Assembly: GCA_025093985.1 (NCBI GenBank)
Contig: JACAAK010000014.1
Location: 1,364,001 to 1,428,000, forward strand
DNA: 64,000 nt
Direction: 5' to 3'
DNA from: Calvatia gigantea
Taxonomy: Eukaryota; Basidiomycota; Agaricomycetes; Agaricales; Lycoperdaceae
Shown piece by piece: positions 24,218-61,159 of the stretch. A program made the position numbers and the translations under genes. The first letter of the stretch is position 1; every line of letters starts with the position of its first letter. The notes under the pieces were generated by a model, which saw only the letters and a list, made by a program, of their open reading frames with translations, was not told the origin of the DNA and searched no databases.

Positions 24218-25530
24218 CCTTCAGTACTATACCTGGAAAGAACCTATTATACTCCATATATGAGATTCCAGAAACCCAAATTATTACAAGAATTACCTGT
24301 TCCTACAAGGAAGTCTAACAAACCTGAACAACCCAAGCCATCTCAAAGTGGCTAATTCAACTATTTTCAACCCAATTTGCCTTCACAGGAATCACCACCA
24401 CAAACCCCATCTCAAGCCATATCCCCTTCCCAGTTTGGAATTGAAAATCCCCAGACCCTACCATCTATCCTCAAAGACAACTTAAATGACAAAACCTTCT
24501 ATCAACTACCTGAACATCTAGACAAAACATCAGTCATCTCCAATAGAGAAGGAGATTACCTTCTATACCCAACTCAACAACTACCTTCTAGAGCATTAAC
24601 TCCAATATTTGGAATTGGAATATACAGGTTTCCCAGTAGAAGGTCTCCTAGTAGAGGTTGAAGAGGCAGAACACTCTCTCCCTCTCCTCTCTCATCACAA
24701 AGTCCCAGCAATGCTCCATCCACTCTGTCCTCTTTCTCACTTAGAGGAGGAGGTCAACAAAGACATTGAACCCCAGTAATTCAATTCATAGGAAATGATG
24801 GAAATTTAAAAGAAATTAGACAGAAACTTCTAAACTTTGATAGAACAAACCCAAGATTCAAAACTTGGTGGAGGCTAGTCAAGAACTACCTCAAAATGAA
24901 CCCCTAAGCATTTATGGATGACCAACAACAAATCAGATTTATTCTAGGCCTTATAGTTGAAGGAAAAGCCAGATCCTGGTCAGAACAATACTACAAAACC
25001 CAAATCACAGATGTCCATGGAAGGCCTATCCCATGGAAATATTCTACCTTCAAAGAGTTTGAAGTAGAATTTTAAAACACTTTACCCCAGTAGACAAACA
25101 AATCACTGTATGATGACAATGGTACAAACTAAAACAAAATAAATCATCTGCAGCAGATTTCAACCTTGAATTTCAATGCCTTGTATCAATTGAAGGTATT
25201 CAAGACAACAAAGCTTTAATTGAACAATATAAATGTGGACTCAACCCTTCTTTAGCCAGAGAAGTCTGGACAAGAAAAGAAGAACTACCAGAAACCATTG
25301 CAGAATAGTATACAGATGCAGTACAATGAGATTCAGTCAACTGCTAAGCTGATGCAATATGGCCTCAAAACTACCCTTGAAATCCAAATCCCTACCAACC
25401 ACCACAATACCCCCAATCAAATCACCCATCACACTTTCAGCAAAACAACCAACCTAGATGAACTATTAATGAAATACAAACTGAGCCTCAAGAATACAAA
25501 CTACAGTACAAAGATGAAGATCTGTATTAT
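24218..25530 (+). pseudogene. Family C gag remnant
   Basis: A gag of a third gypsy family, recognisable by the retrotransposon gag layout FDRTNPRFKTWWRLVKNYL and a WSEQYYKTQITD segment (about 24835-25020). Several stops break it. It continues at 35711 with its zinc knuckle, so B1 was inserted in it. The link to the LTR at 20823 is inferred from order and orientation. Confidence 0.7.
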
Positions 25531-26143
25531 TGTCACAACCCATACACACGCTCACCCGCTTCACCCGCTCTTACCCGGACTATACTTTATATTTTATTTA
25601 CCATTCGCTCTCACCTGCTCTCCCCCATCTCCCCCACTCTCCATTCTTACTATTATGTCTGACATTAATTTCCGATTATCCTCCTTGTACATTTCTCCGG
25701 TTGTCATACCTACTCCCGTTTCCCTTGTAATCCCTTTTACCATTCATATCGTTCCTGTTTCACCTTATTCCTTTTAGCTAGTTACATTCCCGGTGTTTTT
25801 ATCTAGCAGCCATACCTGGCCCGCACCTGAAGTTGTAGTAGTTTCCTTTTGTAGAACCACACTTCCTCGCGTATATAAACCGTAGCTACTTCGCCTGTAA
25901 TCCTCAGTCTGAAATCTACTTAGCAACATGCTTCTCCTATTCCACCTCTGTCTCTGTCTCTGTCTCTGCCTCTGACTCTGTCCTCGTCCCTTATTCTGAA
26001 GTTAGGACCACTCATCGGCAGGAGGGCGCAACACATACATTGAAGCCATGGTCCTCCCAAGTTCACCTGCTTCATCCACATCCACGCATCATCCCTGGGC
26101 ATCTAGACTCCAGTTGTCTCACCCGTGTGACCTATGCTTAACA
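25531..26143 (+). repeat. 5' LTR of B1
   Basis: Starts TGTCACAACCC and ends GCTTAACA. It has a TATA box (TATATAAA, 25872-25879), the 10-mer AGTCTGAAAT 34 nt later (25906-25915), and a TCTCTG-rich pyrimidine repeat near 25945-25985. The same 10-mer is kept in the 3' LTR and in the solo and B2 LTRs. Confidence 0.93.
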
Positions 26144-26155: not shown

Positions 26156-27261
26156 CCCAACTCCTGCTGTTGATTTCTATTCCTTCACTTACTATGGCTA
26201 CATTTGTCAGAACTAAGACTGGCGCAACCATTTGTCGGTCCCTTCACAACAATCCCAAATGAACCCTTTCATCAACCCAATCCACCCCCAGAACTCAGAG
26301 ATCAAAACGGTCTCATCTATCCATTCCAGACAACTTCCCGCAAAACTCCCCTAACCCCTTCGCAGAGCCGATCTGGGAGGAACTTCCCAAACATAGCTCT
26401 GGCCCACCTTGGGGCCCAAGTAGTAGAAACAGTGTAGGCGGCACAGTCCCACCTGGAGATCCTGGCTACCCTGGTGGTGGTGACTATGGTATTAATGATG
26501 AAGACAACTATGGCGATGACCAGAATGATGGTCTAGAATATGCCGATTACCCTTACCCCAATCCTGATGATGGTAGAGGCGATGGGCCTGGAGGCGATGA
26601 CGAACCCGAGGAACCATTAGATGATGATGACGATGGTGATGATGAAACAAGCACTAGTGAGCCATGCGGCCATCGGGGACTTGATCACCCTCTGGCCTGC
26701 ACTATTAGATCCCTCACTAACGCCATAGATGATCATGCCTGCTCTCAGCTGCCCCAGCCTCCTCGACCTCCCCATACTAAGGCCCGCGAACCCAAACCAT
26801 TCAGTGGTGCCAACCCTGATGACCTTCCTTGCTTCCTTTTCCAATATCGACTCTACTTCCATGCCAACCCTACACAATTCACATCTGATACCACCAAGGT
26901 CAACTTCGCCCTCACCTTCCTCACTGATGTCACTCTTCGCTTTCAAGGCATATCCCATACCTGGTCCACCGACTGGGATGAGTTCACCACCGAGCTCAAG
27001 ACCAACTTTGGTGTAGCTGACCTAAAGGGCGAATCGGCCAAACTCCTGGAAAATCTGAGGATGAAGCACAGTGAGAAGATCACCACCTATAATGTTGAAC
27101 TCATGTGGCTCTCATCCCAACTTCGATGGGGTGATGATGTCCTCTGCTACTGCTACTACAAAGGCCTCCCTGATCGTCTCCAAGACACCCTCTCTTCTCA
27201 CCCCAATGGCAAGCCCACCTCATTCAACGAAATGCGTAAAGCAGCCATCATCCTCAATAAT

Positions 27262-27411
27262 CGCTATTGGGAATGTCAATGCAAGAAGACCCATGCGAAG
27301 GAAGCAGCCGAATCGGCGTCCGCTTCTCTCAACAGACGCTATTGGGAATGTCAATGCAAGAAGACCCATGCGAAGGAAGCAGCCGAATCGGCGTCCGCTT
27401 CTCTCAACAGA
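27262..27411 (+). repeat. 75-bp tandem duplication in gag
   Basis: Two back-to-back identical 75-bp units, in frame, each coding a 25-residue block beginning RYWECQCKKTHAKEAAES. The right-hand gag copy (29439 onwards) has one unit only. Confidence 0.95.
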
Positions 27412-27447
27412 AAGTCGGGTAACAATCCAGGACCTCCCTCGAACAAG

Positions 27448-27535
27448 GCCAGCAGCAACAACAACAATAGCAACAACAGCAACAGCAACAATAACAACAG
27501 CAACAGCAACAAGCCCAACCACAGCAGCAGCAAGG
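27448..27535 (+). repeat. AAC/AGC coding microsatellite in B gag
   Basis: Run of AAC and AGC codons giving a Ser/Asn tract in gag. The second gag copy has the same tract at 29551-29638. Its shadow on the other strand produces long poly-Leu frames that are not genes. Confidence 0.85.
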
Positions 27536-27586
27536 GCAACACCTCGAACAAACCCGCCAATACTACCCCATCCTCCTCTACACCCG

Positions 27587-29120
27587 ACAACCCTGTCACC
27601 ACAGCATTCCTGGAACAACTACAGCACGCCTGAGACAATACCTCATCAGCACTACGGACATACCAAGAAAAGATGAAACAGCAACATGACCACAGTAGAA
27701 CCCACACCAGCATTTATCAAACAGGAGATAAAGTATGGTTAGAGAACACCAATATCCATACCAATCAATCATCAAAGAAGCTAGGCCAAAAACAGTATGG
27801 ACCTTTCCTTATTAAGGAGAAGATAGGGGAAGCAGCATATCGGCTGAAACTGCCAGATGGATGGGCCATCCATGATGTATTCAACAAACAGCTCCTGACA
27901 CCAGCACACCAGGTGGAGTTCCCAAGTCAAAAACAACCATCAGCACCAGACCCAGTGATCATCAACAATGAAGAAGAATACGAAGTAGACAAGATCCGTG
28001 GACGACAAAAATGAGGAAGGGGCTATCAATTCCTGGTCCACTGGAAGGGGTACAGCAATGAAGAAGATACGTGGACAGCAGAGGCTAACCTGGAAAATGC
28101 TAAAGACGCCATAAGAGACTACCTAAAAAGGCATCCAGGGGATACCCATAAAAGAGGGGGCAGAAAACACAAAAAAGCAGCAAACAAGCAACCTAGACAA
28201 AGAAACTAAACAGACATGCCTGCCTCCCAATCTAACCACATTGCTATTGACTCCTTTGTCCATCCCACACCCACCAGAATCTCCTCTCTTCCATTCCCCA
28301 AACCAGGCAACAGCCAAGTACCTGCCCCCCAGGGAACCCATTTCAATCTCACTAAGACACCATCCCCTGCACAAGGACTCCTTGAAGCCTTGCTCAAAGA
28401 TGTTGACAAGGCAACCAACAGCAAAATTGAAAACATTACTGCCCAGAACAAATGACTGGTAGTAAACCAGCACATTACCCTCACCACTGTGTGCATCATC
28501 TTTGCTGATATGTATGCTGGATTCACCAATGCCTCCTCCTCCACCAACCAGCATATTCCCGTCATCTTCCGAGCACTATACCAGTCCACCCTCACCCCTA
28601 ACGAAAAAAATCACATCCAAGGACTCCAAAGCCGAATCGATTTGGGCCTTGAGGTCTTTAATCACCTTGACATTGCCAACATATTTCTAGAACTCGCCGA
28701 CATAGCCATGAAGTTACTTGGAAGAGACAAGTCGAATGAAGACCCTGACATCAATATCTTGGTCAATAGAATTCATATCACCCTTTCCGAACTACACAAC
28801 ACTGTCAACCCCACACCACTGACCTGTGCTGATACCCCTATAAACGAGGAAGCCACAGTTTCAATGAAAGAAGAAGTCAACACCCTCCGCCGCTTCATTA
28901 AAACCATCACACTGCCACAACTCATATTGGTTTTTCTTCCGCCTGCGAGATTCTGCACTGTATTGCCAGGACAAGAAAAGGACCAACATTATTGGAACTC
29001 GATAGTCAAGAACTACTAGGACAGCTCCACTACCACCGACTTCCCATACAACGGTGTCCCAGTCCCTATCCGACAAGATGGGCAAAGCTGGTTTGAAACT
29101 GGTATCGACCAGGAAGAGAC
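27587..29120 (+). pseudogene. Family A segment inside B1 gag: integrase end, chromodomain, ORF3
   Basis: Corresponds to the A2 stretch from about 40340 to 46950. It has the integrase C-terminal part (KKLGQKQYGPFLIKEKIG), the chromodomain end and most of ORF3 starting at 28216, with stops such as TGA near 28453 and TAG near 29017. The last 33 bp or so before 29121 match neither family in this window. There are no LTRs and no target duplication; instead identical gag repeats flank it. Confidence 0.85.
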
Positions 29121-29919
29121 TCAAGGCATATCCCATACCTGGTCCACCGACTGGGATGAGTTCACCACCGAGCTCAAGACCAACTTTGGTGTAGCTGACC
29201 TAAAGGGCGAATCGGCCAAACTCCTGGAAAATCTGAGGATGAAGCACAGTGAGAAGATCACCACCTATAATGTTGAACTCATGTGGCTCTCATCCCAACT
29301 TCGATGGGGTGATGATGTCCTCTGCTACTGCTACTACAAAGGCCTCCCTGATCGTCTCCAAGACACCCTCTCTTCTCACCCCAATGGCAAGCCCACCTCA
29401 TTCAACGAAATGCGTAAAGCAGCCATCATCCTCAATAATCGCTATTGGGAATGTCAATGCAAGAAGACCCATGCGAAGGAAGCAGCCGAATCGGCGTCCG
29501 CTTCTCTCAACAGAAAGTCGGGTAACAATCCAGGACCTCCCTCGAACAAGGCCAGCAGCAACAACAACAATAGCAACAACAGCAACAGCAACAATAACAA
29601 CAGCAACAGCAACAAGCCCAACCACAGCAGCAGCAAGGGCAACACCTCGAACAAACCCGCCAATACTACCCCATCCTCCTCTACACCCGCCAAATTGTCC
29701 TCCCCTGCTAAGCCTGACTTATCTGACAAACTCAGCAAGGACAGAAAGCTGACTACCGAAGAATGCAAGTGCCGCCTCAACAACAACCTCTGCCTGTTCT
29801 GTGGCAATGCCGGCCACAAGGTTAGCAAGTGTAGGAAGAAAGCCGCTTCAACTGCAAAGGCTGTTGCCCACAAGGCCGAAGTGGTTGGGGAGAGCTCTGA
29901 AAAGAGCTCAGAAAAATGA
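29121..29919 (+). CDS. B1 gag, second copy with zinc knuckle
   Basis: The repeated gag part (29121-29689) continues into the normal gag C-terminus: a lysine-rich stretch, the CCHC knuckle CLFCGNAGHKVSKC, and a stop at 29917-29919. It lacks its own gag start, because the upstream part belongs to the family A segment. The pol ATG (29916) overlaps this stop as ATGA. Confidence 0.75.
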
Positions 29920-32900
29920 GTGGCGGTCCTCAGGACTCTGCACAGGCTGAGGACCACATTGAACTCACCTGTGCCACAGAGTGTTTTTGACTCAACGCTT
30001 CCGCTCTTTCTAACCCCAATTTCCTGCAGCTCTATCTCGCTTCCCCTTCTGTTTCTTCATCCGCTTCATCTGACCTTGTCCGCTTCAAGGCTCTTGTTGA
30101 TAGTGGGTCTACCCATTGCTTTGTGGACTCTAACTTTGTACATTTGTATGATCTTCTGACCATGCCCATTCCTCCTATTGAACTTCGTCTCTTTGATGGC
30201 TCATCTAATACATACATTACTGAACTAGTGAAGCTTCCTGTTACCTTTGACTGTGGTGAATCTATGACTCTGGACTTTTACGTCACCTGGCTTGACTCTT
30301 CCTGCTCTGTAGTTCTTGGATATAACTGGCTCACCCGCTACAATCTGTCGATTGACTGGGTTTTGGGCCATATCACTTTCCGACCACTTCAGCCTGAACT
30401 TCCTGCCACTTCTGCTCACAGTGCATCCATTCCAGTCGCACCTGCATCCTCTGCAGCATCCGCTTCAGCCACCCCATCTATCACCTCACAGTCTTCACCA
30501 TCTACTTCTTCTGCCATTTCTGTTATGGGCACAGTTGACGTGGCTTGTCTGCATGTCTCACTGGTTAATGCCACCACCTTCCTCCATGCCTCTCACCTCC
30601 CTGGTTCAGTTCAGTATAGCCTCAATCTCAATGACCCATCTATAATAGCTTCCTCCGCCTTTGTTAAGGAGCCTTAGGATGACTGGTCCTATATCCCAGA
30701 AGAGTACCGTGATTTTGCTGACATCTTCAGTAAAATGAAGGCTGACAAGCTTGCCCCGCATCGGCCATACAACCTCCAGATCAATCTTGAAGAAGGTGGC
30801 CAACCACCAGTTGGTACCATCTATTCCCTATCTCAAGTTGAACTAGAGGCTCTATGCGAATTCATTGACGAAAACCTTGCTATCGGATTCATCCGCCCCT
30901 CCAACTCCCCTCACGGAGCCCCTGTCCTCTTTGTCAAGAAAAAGGATGGTTCGCTCCATTTATGCATCGATTTCCGAGGTCTCAACCGCATTACCAAGAA
31001 GGATCGCTACCCCCTTCCTCTCATACTGTATCTGACCTACTCAATTCTCCCCACAAAGCCCGCATCTATACCAAGATTGACCTACGCCACACTTATCACC
31101 TTGTCCACATTGCAGAAGGTGATGAATGGAAAATGGCCTTCCGAACCCGCTACGGATTGTTCGAGTGGCTTGTTATGCCTTTCGGCCTTACCAATGCACC
31201 TGCTGCCTTCCAGCAGTTTATGAACAACATCTTCAAAGATCTCTTAGATGTCTGCATGACGGTCTATCTTGACAACATACTCATCTATTCCGATGACATC
31301 AGCATACACCGCAAGCAAGTCCATGAGGTTCTCAAGTGGCTTAGGCAGAATGGTCTCTATACCCACGCAGATAAGTGCAAATTCAAGTCTGACACAGTTG
31401 AATACCTTGGTTACGTTCTTTCCCCTGATGGTCTCAAGATGTCTGAAGACAAGGTCAAGATTATCCAAGACTGGCCAGAACCAAAGAAGATCAAGGACAT
31501 ACAGTCCTTCTTAGGTTTTGCCAACTTCTATTGTCGCTTCATTTATAACTACTCTGACATTGTAGTTCCTCTCACCCACCTTACCCGCAAGGGTATTCCT
31601 TGGAACTTCAACGATAAATGTCAAGAGGCTTTCCAATCATGGAAGGACGCTTTCACCTCTGCTCCTATCCTGACCCACTGGATCCCTGATGCTCAAATCA
31701 TCGTTGAGACAGATGCATCTGACTATGTGCTAGCCGCCATCCTCTCTATCATCACTGAGGATGGTGAAGTTCACCCCATGGCTTTCCATTCCCACACATT
31801 CACTTCGGCCGAGTCGAACTATGACACACATGACAAGGAACTACTGGCTATCTTTGAAGCCTTTAGGATCTGGCGGCATTATCTTGAAGGTGCTCCCCTT
31901 CCCATTGACGTTGTCACTGATCATAAGAATCTGGAATACTTCTGCACCACTAAAATCCTCACCCGCCGTCAAGCTCGCTATTCCAAATTCTTGTCACAGT
32001 TCAATCTCACCATCTGCTTTCGCCCCGGCCAACTTGGTACGAAGCCCAATGCTTTAACTAGATGATGGGATGTCTACCCCAAAGGGGGGAATAATGGCTA
32101 TGCTATAGTCAATCCTCACAACTTCTGTCCAGTCTTTACTCATGAACAACTTGCAGCCTCCGTCTGTGCTACTTATCTTTATACCCCTTCCCTTTGCGCA
32201 GCCACAATCATTGACCTCGATCAGCTACATTCCGACATCCTTTCATCTCTTCTGTAAGACCTGACTGTGGCTCAACACCTAGCCAAACCCGAAGGATGCT
32301 GGATTGTAGATTCATCCGGTTTTCTCCGCCTTGACGACAGGATCTATGTTCCCAATGTTGACAATCTTCGACTTTGCATTCTACAGTACAAGCATGATCA
32401 CATCCTTTCCGGACACTTCAGTCAGAACAAGACTCTGGAGTTAGTCCAACGTGATTACACTTGGCCCAAAATCCACATGACAGTCAAAGATTTCTGCAAA
32501 TCCTGCGTCACCTGCATGCACTCTAAGCCACAACAACACCGACCTTATGGAAACCTCAAGCAGCTCCCCATTCCTGAATGGCCATGGAACTCTATCTCTA
32601 TGGACTTCATTGAGAAACTTCCCACATCTTCTAGCTACAACACTATCCTTGTTATCGTTGATCGCCTCACCAAGCAATCTTTGTTCATTCCCACTCATGA
32701 CACCATCACCTCAGCCAAACTCGCCTGCCTATTTGTTATTCATGTATTTTCAAAACATGGCATTCCCGAACATGTTACATCTGGTTGCGGTTCCGAATTC
32801 ATTTCGCACTTCTTCCACTCGCTTGGACAAGCACTGGACATAAAGTTACACTTCACCTCCGGGTATCACCCTGAGGGCGATAGACAAACCAAATGGACTA

Positions 32901-33679
32901 ACCAGACTCTCGAGCAATACCTCCATGTCTACTGCAACTACTAGCAGGACAACTGGGCTGAGTTACTGCCACTAGCTGAGTTTGCCTATAACAATGCTCC
33001 TAGTGCCACTACTGGTGTCTCCCCATTCTTCACTAATAAAGGCTATCATCCCAATATCACAGTCTATCCGGAACGCGACTTGGCATCTGCACACGCATGT
33101 CAATTCATTGTCGACCTTGATGAACTCCACACAGTACTCAAATCCAAGATCAAGCAAGCTCAAGAATGGTACCAGTCATCCACTGATACCTGCCGGACAC
33201 CTGCACCTAACTTCATAGTTGGGCAAAAGGTCTTTGTTAAGGCGCAGTTCTTCCACATGACTTGACCATTGAAGAAACTCTCAGAAAAGTATTTGGGTCC
33301 TTATGAGATTATCACTCAACCTGGTTCTGTTTCTTATACTCTATGCTTACCTGACTCAATGCATGCCGTTCACCCAGTATTCCACGTTTCGATGCTTGAA
33401 CCTGCCACACCTAACCCATTTGATGGCTGCTCTGACCCGCCTCCTCTGCCCATTGAAGTCAAAGGCGAGCCGGAGTATGAAATCGCCCACATTGTTGACT
33501 CAAAGATTGACTGTCGACGTGCCTGCAAGTTATTATACAAGGTTATTTGGTTGGGTTATGAGGATACTGAAGAAGAGTCTTCTTGGCTGCCTGCTACTGA
33601 ATTAGAGCATGCAGCTGAACTTGTGGCAGATTTCCATACAGCTTATCCTGCTAAGCCTGGTCCCTTGTGTTCTTTGTAA
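29916..33679 (+). pseudogene. B1 pol: protease, RT, RNase H, integrase, chromodomain
   Basis: Pol lies in the -1 frame relative to gag and starts ATG at 29916. Protease has LVDSGSTHCF. RT has [18 protein letters not shown] and the catalytic box YLDNILIYSDD where YLDD is expected, so a metal ligand is lost. RNase H has VETDASDYVLAAIL. Integrase has SMDFIEKLP, then TSGCGSEF where copy B2 reads SDRSSEF, so the second Asp is lost too. The chromodomain region ends YEDTEEESSWLPATELEH. Breaks: TGA before LNASALSN, TAG at about 30675, a 5-bp insertion near 31032 that shifts the frame, TGA near 32063, TAG near 32942 and TGA near 33263. Group: chromovirus. Confidence 0.9.
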
Positions 33680-33798: not shown

Positions 33799-34961
33799 TC
33801 AATCCTCATGCTGGCCCCCTTCCACACCCTCTTCTGTACCATCTTCTTTTTCTCCACTCTCCTCCACACTTTCTTCACTTCCTTCCTCTCCACTACTACC
33901 GTTTCTCTTTTCTTCCTCATCCAAGTCCATCTGCTCACCCCCTTCTCGCACCGGTTGTGACGGCCCCTCACCCCGGTCCTCAATGTCAATGTCACCCACC
34001 TCATCCACATGCTATTGGATATCCGCACCAGGCAGTCATTCTGCAATCTGTCCTGGACATTCAGTCCTTCCTGTGTGTGGAGGATACCGTTGACTCACCA
34101 CCAGGCCAAGGGTGTGGAACTCCTCTCCATTTGCAATGGTCTCCCTCAAGATCATGGCCAAATTGCAGATATCATGTTCTCGGTATCGGGACTCGTGTGC
34201 CATCCACGCATTTTGCTGATGCAATAAAATGATGATTTCGTTGAGGCATAGGGTGTTCTCTTCAAGTGCGGTCGCGAATTGGTCGAGATGTCATGCAAGG
34301 ATGTGGGGATTCGAGACCTTGGCACTTCCACCTGGCAGCTCACACTTTTGCTTGCCCTTGACACAAGTCGTGCATTTGGTGGTAACCCAGCTAAGGACTT
34401 CTCAGCTTAATATTCAACAGGAAGAGGCCGCACTTACTTGGAGTGGATCTGTCTGGGTTGACACCTGATACCCATGTCGATGCAGTGCTTGCAGGGGTTG
34501 TCCCCACCTATGGGAACATGCACCTGCAGCTGAACCTCCTCCTCTTCCTCCTCATCCAACGACCCCAGCACATCATCCTCTTCGTCCGAATCCTCCACCC
34601 TCGGCCATTTCCTCAATTGGCTGGGGCCCGCAACCGGTTCCTCCTGGGTCTTCCCCTTCCTATGTCGTTGTTCCTCCATGTTCTCCTCCTCTTGCTCCTC
34701 CCTTTTCTTATGTGCTGCCTCCTCAAGCCACTTCTTCCGCTCGTCACGTTTCTTCGCCTCCTCTTGTTTCCTCTCCTCATCGCGCCTCTTCTTCTCCTTC
34801 TCTTCGTGCTTCTCCCTATCCGCTCTTTCTTTGGCTTCAGCAGCAGTGAGGTCTGCAATCAACCTGCGCTCATCCTCTTCCTCCTGCTCATGCTGAAGTC
34901 TGGCACGTTCACGTTTCTCCTTGAGTTCGGCTTGTAGTTGGGCAGCAGTCTTGGGAGGCAT
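33799..34961 (-). pseudogene. Antisense accessory gene in B1: coiled-coil, Zn2Cys6-like, acidic protein
   Basis: Rebuilt as complement(join(33799..34047,34099..34390,34438..34961)), 1065 nt, about 354 codons, both introns GT-AG (47 and 51 nt). It lies between pol and the 3' LTR on the opposite strand. Exon 1 codes a highly charged helix (ELKEKRERARLQHEQEEED onwards, about residues 10-105), an acidic run and CKHCIDMGIRC. Splicing joins this to CTTCVKGKQKC, giving two C-x2-C-x6-C halves, the pattern of a fungal Zn2Cys6 cluster. A helical part (NGEEFHTLGLVV) and an acidic tail (QMDLDEEEKRN) follow. The copy has in-frame TGA at 34291-34293, which B2 shares, and further TGA and TAG in exon 3, so it is probably dead. 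Function unknown; DNA binding is only suggested by the Cys pattern. Confidence 0.75.
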
Positions 34962-35097
34962 GGTGGTAGTAGGAGGTCAAGAGGCAATCAAAGGAAATTT
35001 TTCAAAAATGTGGATCTTATGCCCGCATCAAATTTTTCAACTCCGTTTCCCATGACACCTTTATGGCCTTGAGGGCTCGGCCCTAAGGAAGGAATAC
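34962..35097. promoter_or_regulatory. Polypurine tract and antisense-gene leader of B1
   Basis: Holds CTAAGGAAGGAATAC directly before the 3' LTR, the plus-strand primer of the element, and the presumed leader of the antisense gene. The B2 copy reads TTAAGGGGGGAATAC on its own strand. Confidence 0.6.
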
Positions 35098-35710
35098 TGT
35101 CACAACCCATACACGCACTCATCTGCTTCACCCACTCTTACCCGGACTATACTTTATATTTTATTTACCATTCGCTCTCACCTGCTCTCCCCCATCTCCC
35201 CTGCTCTCCATTCTTACTATTATGTCTGATGTTAATTTCTGATTATCCTTCTTGTACATTTCTCCAGTTGTCATACCTACTCCCGTTTCCCTTGTAATCC
35301 CTTTTACCATTCATATTGTTCCTGTGTCACCTTATTCCTTTTAGCTAGTTGCATTCCCAGTGTTTTTATCTAGCGGCCATACCTGGCCCACACCTGAAGT
35401 TGTAGTAGTTTCCTTTTGTAGAACCACACTTCCTCGCGTATATAAACCATAGCTACTTCACCTGTAATCCTCAGTCTGAAATCTACTTAGCAACACACTT
35501 CTCCTATTCCACCTCTGTCTCTGTCTCTGTCTCTGCCTCTGACTCTGTCCTTGTCCCTTATTCTGAAGTTAGGACCACTCATCAGCAGGAGGGTGCAACA
35601 CATACGTTGAAGCCACGGTCCTTCCAAGTTTGCCCGCTTTGTCTGCATCCACATATCATCCCCAGGCATCTAGACTCCAGTCATCTCACCCGCGTGACCC
35701 GTGCTTAACA
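35098..35710 (+). repeat. 3' LTR of B1
   Basis: 613 bp, the same length as the 5' LTR and nearly the same in sequence; most differences are C/T or G/A changes. Followed by the ATTAT target duplication. Confidence 0.93.
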
Positions 35711-35931
35711 ATTATCCTGAACAAGAATCAGATACTACTTATGACACCTATGACCCTAATAATCCTGAATTACAACTAAATGCCATATTCACTGTTGAGC
35801 AAGTTGCTTACTACAAATCAGAGAAATGTATAGGTTGTGGAAAATTTGGACACCTTATCAGCAATTGTCTGAATCCTGACCCAAATTTGTCCAAAAACAA
35901 ACCATCTCCCAGACAACCTAATCCTCTACCA
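35711..35931 (+). pseudogene. Family C gag remnant with zinc knuckle
   Basis: Continues the gag cut by B1. It codes ESDTTYDTYDPNNPE and the knuckle CIGCGKFGHLISNC. It is cut at 35931 by A2. Confidence 0.75.
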
Positions 35932-60030: not shown

Positions 60031-61159
60031 ATGCCTCCTAAGACCACTGCTCAACTACAAGCTGAGCTTGAGGAGAAACGTGAATGTGCCAGGCTCCAGT
60101 GTGAACAGGAAGAAGAGGATGAGCACAGGTTGATTGCAGACCTTGCTGCCACTGAAGCCAAGGAGAGAGAGAATAGGGAGAAGCGTGAAGAAGAGGAGAG
60201 AAAACAAGAGGAGGCAAGGAAACGTGATGAGTGGAAGAAGTGGCTTGAGGAGGCGGTATGTAAGAAAAGGGAGGAGCAAGAGGAGGAGAATGTGGAGGAA
60301 CGATGATGTAGGAAGGGGAAGGTCCAGGAGGAACTAGTAGTAGGTCCCAGCCAATTGAGGAAACAGCCAAGGGTGGAGGATTCAGATAAAGAGGACAATG
60401 CACCAGAGTTATTGGATGAGGAGGAAAAGGAGGAGGTTCAGCTGCAGGTGCACGTTCCCATGGGTGGGGACAACCCCTGCAAGCACTGCATCGACATGGG
60501 TATCAGGTGTCAACCTGGACAGACCTGCTCCAAGTAAGTGCGGCCTCTTCCTATTGATTATTAAGCTGAGAAGTCCTTAGCCGGGTTACCACCAAATATG
60601 CGACTTGCATCAAGGGCAAGTGAAAGTGTGAGCCGCTAGGTGGGAGCACCAAGGTCTCGAATCCCCATGTCCTTGTGTGACATCTCGACCAATTCATGAC
60701 TGCACTTGAAGAGAACACCCTATGCCTCAACAAAATCATTGTTTTATTGTATCAGCAGAATGCATGGATGGCACATGAGTCCTGATACTGAGAACATGAT
60801 ACCTGCAATTGGCTATGATCTTGAGGGAGACCATTGCAAATGGAGAGGAGTTCCATGCCCTTGGCCTGGTGGTGAGTCAATGGTATTCTCCGCACACAGG
60901 AAGGACTGAACATCCAGGACAGATTGCAGAACAGCTGCTTAGTGCGGATATCTGATGGCATGTGGATGAGGTAGATGACATCGACATCGAGGACCAGGGT
61001 GAGGGGCCATCGTGACCAGTGCAAGAAGGGGGTGAGCAGATGGACTTGGATGAGGAAGAGAAGGGAAATGGTAGTAGTGGTGAGGAAGGGAGTGAAGAAA
61101 ACGAGGAGGAAAGCAGGGAAAAGGAGGATGATGCAGAAGAGGGAAGGCATAAGGATTGA
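60031..61159 (+). pseudogene. Antisense accessory gene in B2
   Basis: Second copy of the coiled-coil/Zn2Cys6-like gene, join(60031..60533,60581..60871,60923..61159), opposite in strand to B2 pol as in B1. It has the same ATG context, the same two intron positions and the same Cys triplet CKHCIDMGIRC. It is damaged: TGA near 60304, the fourth Cys is Tyr, a stop sits in the second Cys half, a base is lost near 60810, and TGA at 60678-60680 matches the one in B1. Confidence 0.78.

Follow-up and report, generated by a model that had tools for sequence, protein, structure and literature searches.

An intron-containing antisense gene with a six-cysteine module in a Ty3/gypsy chromovirus clade of Calvatia gigantea

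The element and its antisense gene

We analysed a 64,000-nucleotide stretch of the Calvatia gigantea genome (the window; contig JACAAK010000014.1, positions 1,364,001 to 1,428,000 of the forward strand), in which a long terminal repeat (LTR) retrotransposon carries, between the end of pol and its 3′ LTR, a gene read from the opposite strand. The best model of this minus-strand gene, 34961-33799, has two exons, 34961-34438 and 34390-33799, and its intron falls between the two halves of a six-cysteine module.

34438..34961, minus strand: exon 1, with the ATG, charged N-terminus, basic clusters and first C-x2-C-x6-C half; stop-free in the window copy
34391..34437, minus strand: intron of 47 nt, GTAAGT...CTTAG, separating the cysteine halves; phase 2 in open copies
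33799..34390, minus strand: exon 2, with the second C-x2-C-x6-C half, middle region and acidic C-terminus; three in-frame stops in the window copy

An earlier first-pass annotation of this DNA had proposed an antisense, spliced, element-carried gene placed before the 3′ LTR, and this is borne out, as pol ends at 33679 and the 3′ LTR begins at 35098. The splice that it described, joining CKHCIDMGIRC to CTTCVKGKQKC, is seen in the window sequence, as are the charged N-terminal part before the cysteine region and the acidic tail after it. It had also called for three exons and a 354-codon product. The gene belongs to a family, designated B, in which three of the 30 copies have an open frame; these read straight through exon 2 (GLVVSQRDPQHTG...ADIRRHVDE), with no second intron, to a product of 371 residues. 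Two exons thus suffice in every open family B copy, and a second intron and third exon are unsupported; the three-exon proposal gave no exact boundaries. Of the 30 family B copies, 27 have a donor-like GTGAGT at 34098 and eight have an AG near 34012, none of these eight being open. Alternative splicing at this GTGAGT is possible, and no open copy needs it. The in-frame stops of the window copy all lie in exon 2: the one at 34293-34291 recurs in 18 of the 29 other family B copies, and those at 34038-34036 and 34014-34012 recur in none.

The carrying element lies on the plus strand and is bounded by a target site duplication (TSD).

25531..26143, plus strand: 5′ LTR, TSD ATTAT at 25526-25530
29020..29919, plus strand: gag fragment (Pfam match, Retrotrans_gag)
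29991..30677, plus strand: protease fragment (Pfam match, RVP_2)
30869..32065, plus strand: reverse transcriptase (RT) and RNase H (Pfam match)
32258..32944, plus strand: integrase (Pfam match, H2C2; rve slightly below cut-off)
33266..33679, plus strand: Tf2-1-like SH3 and chromodomain, end of pol (Pfam match)
35098..35710, plus strand: 3′ LTR, TSD ATTAT at 35711-35715

With gag, protease, RT, RNase H, integrase, chromodomain, LTRs and a 5-bp TSD, the window element is a Ty3/gypsy chromovirus. Its LTR stretches differ at 48 of 620 aligned sites, 38 of these changes being CpG-type. A scanned copy of a second family, C, is also chromovirus-like; its chromodomain match scores 20.8 bits, below the cut-off of 25.1.

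Several features lie elsewhere in the window or in the element. A second family B copy (L026) is found at 60031..61143 on the plus strand, its element being on the minus strand; it is broken, with nine stops in the spliced reading and a frameshift. Within the element, direct duplications (394 bp at 100% and 263 bp at 98%) at 26943-29693 flank an integrase-region piece of another element, an arrangement that reflects a nested insertion or a duplication. Inside or beside the duplicated piece, a triplet repeat on the minus strand (27490-27541 and 29593-29644) reads as poly-cysteine. Short inverted repeats occur at 35060-35097, beside the polypurine tract (sense GGCCTCGAGGGCTCGGCCCTAA in other copies). 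A comparison of one B copy with one C copy shows much greater similarity in this block than elsewhere in the leader; it may act in cis, signalling plus-strand priming or packaging.

Two families, linkage and constraint

A nucleotide-level search of the 46-Mb genome, which comprises 77 contigs, returned 42 matches, and 30 family B copies were fetched and aligned. Family C was reached by protein search and then by a search from one diverged gene, which led to a large family. The intron is present at the shared place in all 57 B and C copies examined and is 47 nt long in 56. In family B the donor is GTAAGT in 29 of 30 copies and GTAAAT in one, the acceptor is TTAG in all 30, and 29 copies have the 47-nt length, the remaining one having 48 nt; in all 27 family C copies the intron is 47 nt, reads GTAAGT...TAG and occupies the same place as in B, with phase 2 in the open ones. 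Intact copies do exist in the genome: the full-length spliced frame is open in three of 30 family B copies (371 codons) and in five of 27 family C copies. In one family C copy (L058) a 296-nt insertion interrupts the first cysteine half.

The B and C proteins are only 32-34% identical, and both have six cysteines with identical spacing, basic clusters and an acidic tail. The recurrence of the cysteine layout and spacing, and of the intron's place, phase and length, at this identity is more than chance would give. When low complexity was masked in one B-C copy pair, the annotated frames matched each other at 48.9 bits (E 6e-11), against a maximum of 20.4 bits among the 35 remaining frame pairs. 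When a degenerate DNA pattern was built from the cysteine blocks of B and C, it matched at 33 places, every one a B or C gene by its coordinates; the reversed control matched nowhere.

The gene accompanies one RT clade. The RT search scored 146 of 1140 candidates, and the counts given here describe this better-scoring part. Of 75 matches listed with at least 68% identity, 74 were entered, the omitted one being the second piece of a split RT already entered. The antisense gene lies no more than 4.5 kb 3′ of the RT in 59 of the 74 (at 2.01-2.13 kb in 53 of these), at 4.5-13 kb in nine, and is absent in six; in all 68 linked cases it is antisense to the RT and 3′ of it. Among distant RT matches (38-43% identity) 67 of 70 are without the gene and three are with it, and the single match at 53% identity has no antisense gene nearby. 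The comparison covered 82 gene places, 15 of them without an assigned RT.

Recently moved family C elements carry the gene. Four of their LTR pairs have 14, 22, 29 and 38 differences per ~549 sites, of which 13, 20, 24 and 35, respectively, are CpG-type. In one family C copy (L032), with 14 differences in 548 LTR sites (13 CpG-type), the RT core is short of ~590 bp and the antisense gene is still open. CpG-type columns make up about half of the variable exon columns (226 of 468 in 27 family B copies). Across L001-L030 and L031-L037, changes of CG to TG or CA account for the LTR-pair differences and for roughly half of the variable gene columns, as methylated-CpG deamination predicts.

Selection and column counts used 27 of the 30 family B copies (L005, L017 and L028 omitted) and 21 of the 27 family C copies (L039, L040, L046, L047, L057 and L058 omitted). 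Non-CpG changes found in at least two copies are depleted in replacements in both families: 58 were seen among 108 changes in B, against 71.1 expected (ratio 0.60, z -2.7), and 50 among 89 in C, against 61.3 expected (ratio 0.58, z -2.7). For singleton non-CpG changes the replacement ratio is 0.81 in B (145 changes) and 1.16 in C (71 changes). In pol (178-316 codons) the replacement divergence (dN) between B and C is 0.08-0.09 and the silent divergence (dS) about 1.4-1.5, whereas between these families the antisense gene has a dN of 0.75-0.80 and a saturated dS; two open family C copies differ by a dN of 0.09 and a dS of 0.29. The protein evolves rapidly, far faster than pol, with a fixed cysteine layout.

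Cysteine module and candidate LTR sites

In the antisense protein the N-terminal 110 residues are charged and the last 60 acidic. Besides the cysteine module it has basic clusters, at residues 98-104 and 117-121 in two open copies of family B and at about 134-137 and 166-169 in five open copies of family C. The cysteine module has the spacing C-x2-C-x6-C-x13-C-x2-C-x6-C in both families, which share six of six cysteines. All six are retained in 22 of 30 family B and 23 of 27 family C copies, and the fourth residue of the last x6 is lysine in every one of the 30 B and 27 C copies. The first-pass annotation had made it a test of its idea that the cysteines vary less than neighbouring residues. 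This holds in both families as far as motif neighbours go (retention 0.943 versus 0.858 in B and 0.974 versus 0.873 in C), and in C also against other CpG-free codons (0.974 versus 0.858). Cysteine 181 of family B is kept in only 0.79. We take the sharing of all six cysteines between B and C at 32-34% identity as stronger evidence than retention within either family.

The same annotation had likened the module to the fungal binuclear zinc cluster, Zn2Cys6. The resemblance stands, the membership does not. Like the Zn2Cys6 (Gal4) domain, the module has two C-x2-C-x6-C halves and, as the fourth residue of the second x6, a lysine (57 of 57 copies here). Unlike it, the module has its basic half second, not first, and a spacer of 13 rather than 5-12 residues: measured against the pattern CX2CX6CX5-12CX2CX6-8C, as given in a portion of PMC5542705, it matches apart from this spacer, which is one residue too long in both families. 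Matches to PF00172 reach 10.2 bits (E 0.86) for B and 11.1 bits (E 0.46) for C, below the gathering score of 21. No significant match to solved structures was found; GAL4 (3coq_A) had an E of 0.28 with a B plus C profile. The module may possibly work in a Zn2Cys6-like manner, even though it is not filed there.

The position of the basic half raises the idea that the two halves are swapped relative to Zn2Cys6, and support for it is mixed. Pfam sets B residues 153-173, the first half, on positions 15-35 of the PF00172 profile, and family C residues 166-193 are placed on positions 9-37; the GAL4 alignment, however, pairs second half with second half. For the comparison of halves the cysteines occupy what we take to be their places in the PF00172 profile.

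Candidate target sites lie in the LTRs.

25551..25578, plus strand: CACCCGCT repeats (CGGG on the opposite strand) near the U3 start of the 5′ LTR; candidate binding sites

The LTRs of B and C have in common the TATA-to-R region and CACCCGC repeats near the U3 start. In one B-C pair compared most of U3 is unalignable, pol being ~80% identical between the families. CACCCGC occurs four times in one B LTR and twice in one C LTR, and in internal sequence twice in 2.8 kb and twice in 6.0 kb. These repeats only suggest that the antisense protein binds zinc and CGG-type DNA.

Interpretation and known systems

We put the probability at roughly 0.6 that this is an accessory protein-coding gene of a Ty3/gypsy chromovirus clade, lying antisense between pol and the 3′ LTR and encoding a nuclear factor, most likely an LTR regulator. 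At the level of sequence, its support is the two-exon frame, a fixed-place intron that splits a six-cysteine module, linkage to an RT clade, replacement constraint and fast divergence. That it is a real coding gene of the element is almost certain. Since repeated cycles of copying have not removed it, the gene probably has a working role in the element and is no accident. A nuclear, zinc-binding protein is the probable product; that this protein acts as a regulator at its own LTR is plausible, at slightly less than even odds.

In the mechanism that we envisage, antisense transcription would start from or near the 3′ LTR, the host would splice the transcript, and translation would give a protein that the basic clusters may direct to the nucleus. 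The paired C-x2-C-x6-C halves would bind zinc, and the target of the protein would be DNA or RNA of the element itself, with regulation at the LTR as its most likely role. Copying leaves the antisense intron in place, since the sense genomic RNA offers no splice sites there. A bolder version makes the protein a self-encoded, spliced antisense transcription factor with a reversed zinc cluster, its basic DNA-reading half second, which would bind CGG-type U3 repeats as a feedback switch and coevolve with U3; we hold this tentatively and consider it rather unlikely.

Several observations weigh against a protein acting as LTR regulator, or against the evidence for it. Replacements are likewise depleted in the sense-strand mirror frame (0.64 in B, 0.54 in C) because third positions of both frames coincide, and the replacement test alone therefore cannot choose the strand; it is the B-C frame similarity that separates the antisense frame from its sense mirror. 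Among the 21 closest B copies the third-position excess is absent from shared changes (11 of 36), so the selection signal stems from differences between subfamilies. In family B the cysteines (0.943) are retained no better than other CpG-free codons (0.939), and one of the three open B copies is short of a cysteine. A downstream coiled coil for dimerisation is described as typical of Zn2Cys6 proteins in the part of PMC5559640 that deals with it; here neither an amphipathic helix nor helical periodicity after the cysteines is better than in shuffled sequences, the best helical moment being reached by 155 of 500 shuffles for B and by 89 of 500 for C. CCCG or CGGG was seen 14 times in a B LTR versus 5.5 in shuffles, seven versus 4.2 in a C LTR and four versus 4.0 in another C LTR, an enrichment clear in B and weak or absent in C. 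An antisense TATAAA was found at none of seven family C loci, and none is common to B and C. No relatives outside this genome were found in protein databases or in a scan of viral contigs, whose fungal coverage was unchecked, so that this absence says little.

That the protein serves in structure or assembly, in the manner of a nucleocapsid or chromatin protein, rather than in regulating transcription is unlikely, and the charged N-terminus, acidic tail and very fast divergence would fit such a chaperone- or capsid-like role equally well. The element, however, has its own gag, that of the family C copy having a zf-CCHC match under the cut-off, and the basic clusters, which resemble nuclear localisation signals, favour the nucleus, though not decisively.

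Quite unlikely, in our view, is that the functional product is the antisense RNA, as a source of double-stranded or small interfering RNA or through interference with sense transcription, with the protein secondary. Such a role has been raised for plant antisense open reading frames (aORFs) in a passage of PMC7264820, and 29 of 30 family B copies have a TATAAA in antisense orientation no more than 260 nt before the ATG (in the window, in the 3′ LTR on the minus strand). The frame, the intron place and the cysteines persist at 32-34% protein identity, however, and replacements are depleted, none of which an RNA role would require.

The first-pass suggestion of a captured host regulator fares worse. 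A recently transduced host zinc-cluster gene would account for the Zn2Cys6 resemblance (PF00172 E 0.86 and 0.46), but no host copy was recognised among the best candidates of the genome protein searches: at E of at most 10 these gave B or C genes or similar pieces, with at least 51% identity, plus cross-family matches, the short pieces being uninspected. The gene lies at the same place in both families of the clade, and its acquisition must therefore be old; a recent capture is very unlikely.

That there is no gene at all, only a stretch of purine-rich spacer open by chance or an open reading frame (ORF) on the sense strand, is scarcely credible, since, although the longest sense frames of the eight open copies reach 164-271 residues, no sense frame exceeds 20.4 bits between B and C, on which ground a sense-strand ORF is rejected, and the intron, the cysteines and their spacing are common to both families, whose genes alone account for all 33 places of the cysteine-block pattern, with none for its reversed control.

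In those portions of the literature that we found, the antisense accessory genes described for LTR elements come from plants and retroviruses, and their function in retrotransposons is called unknown; our literature search found no fungal LTR element with a spliced gene in antisense orientation. The legend to Figure 3 of PMC2864245 marks an 'add. ORF' of unknown function in some LTR elements, fungal and one from a spikemoss; it could be related, and section 5 of that paper leaves its orientation, splicing and sequence undescribed. The present case is compact and of high copy number: the intron is a built-in marker of antisense expression, there are two diverged families, recent insertions and a candidate binding site, and the function of such genes is therefore directly testable.

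The plant aORF-3R genes (maize Grande gene23, rice RIRE2, Silene Retand) are likewise antisense between pol and the 3′ LTR, and like them the gene here is present in most copies (68 of 74 RT matches). They belong to plant elements, most Retand clusters carrying a TRP28 domain according to the sections consulted, whereas the present gene sits in a fungal-type chromovirus and has a six-cysteine module split by an intron; TRP28 (PF04195) is not among the Pfam matches listed at E of at most 10. The product of the Grande gene is nuclear, as stated in parts of PMC7264820 and PMC11963269. HBZ of human T-cell leukaemia virus type 1 (HTLV-1) is, in an excerpt of PMC10186651, also an antisense and spliced product of an LTR element, is nuclear and lowers LTR expression. 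HBZ, as compared here together with APH-2/3/4, is a bZIP protein, and no bZIP domain is among the Pfam matches listed at E of at most 10 for the antisense gene. By analogy, the plant antisense aORFs and HTLV HBZ would be its nearest functional models.
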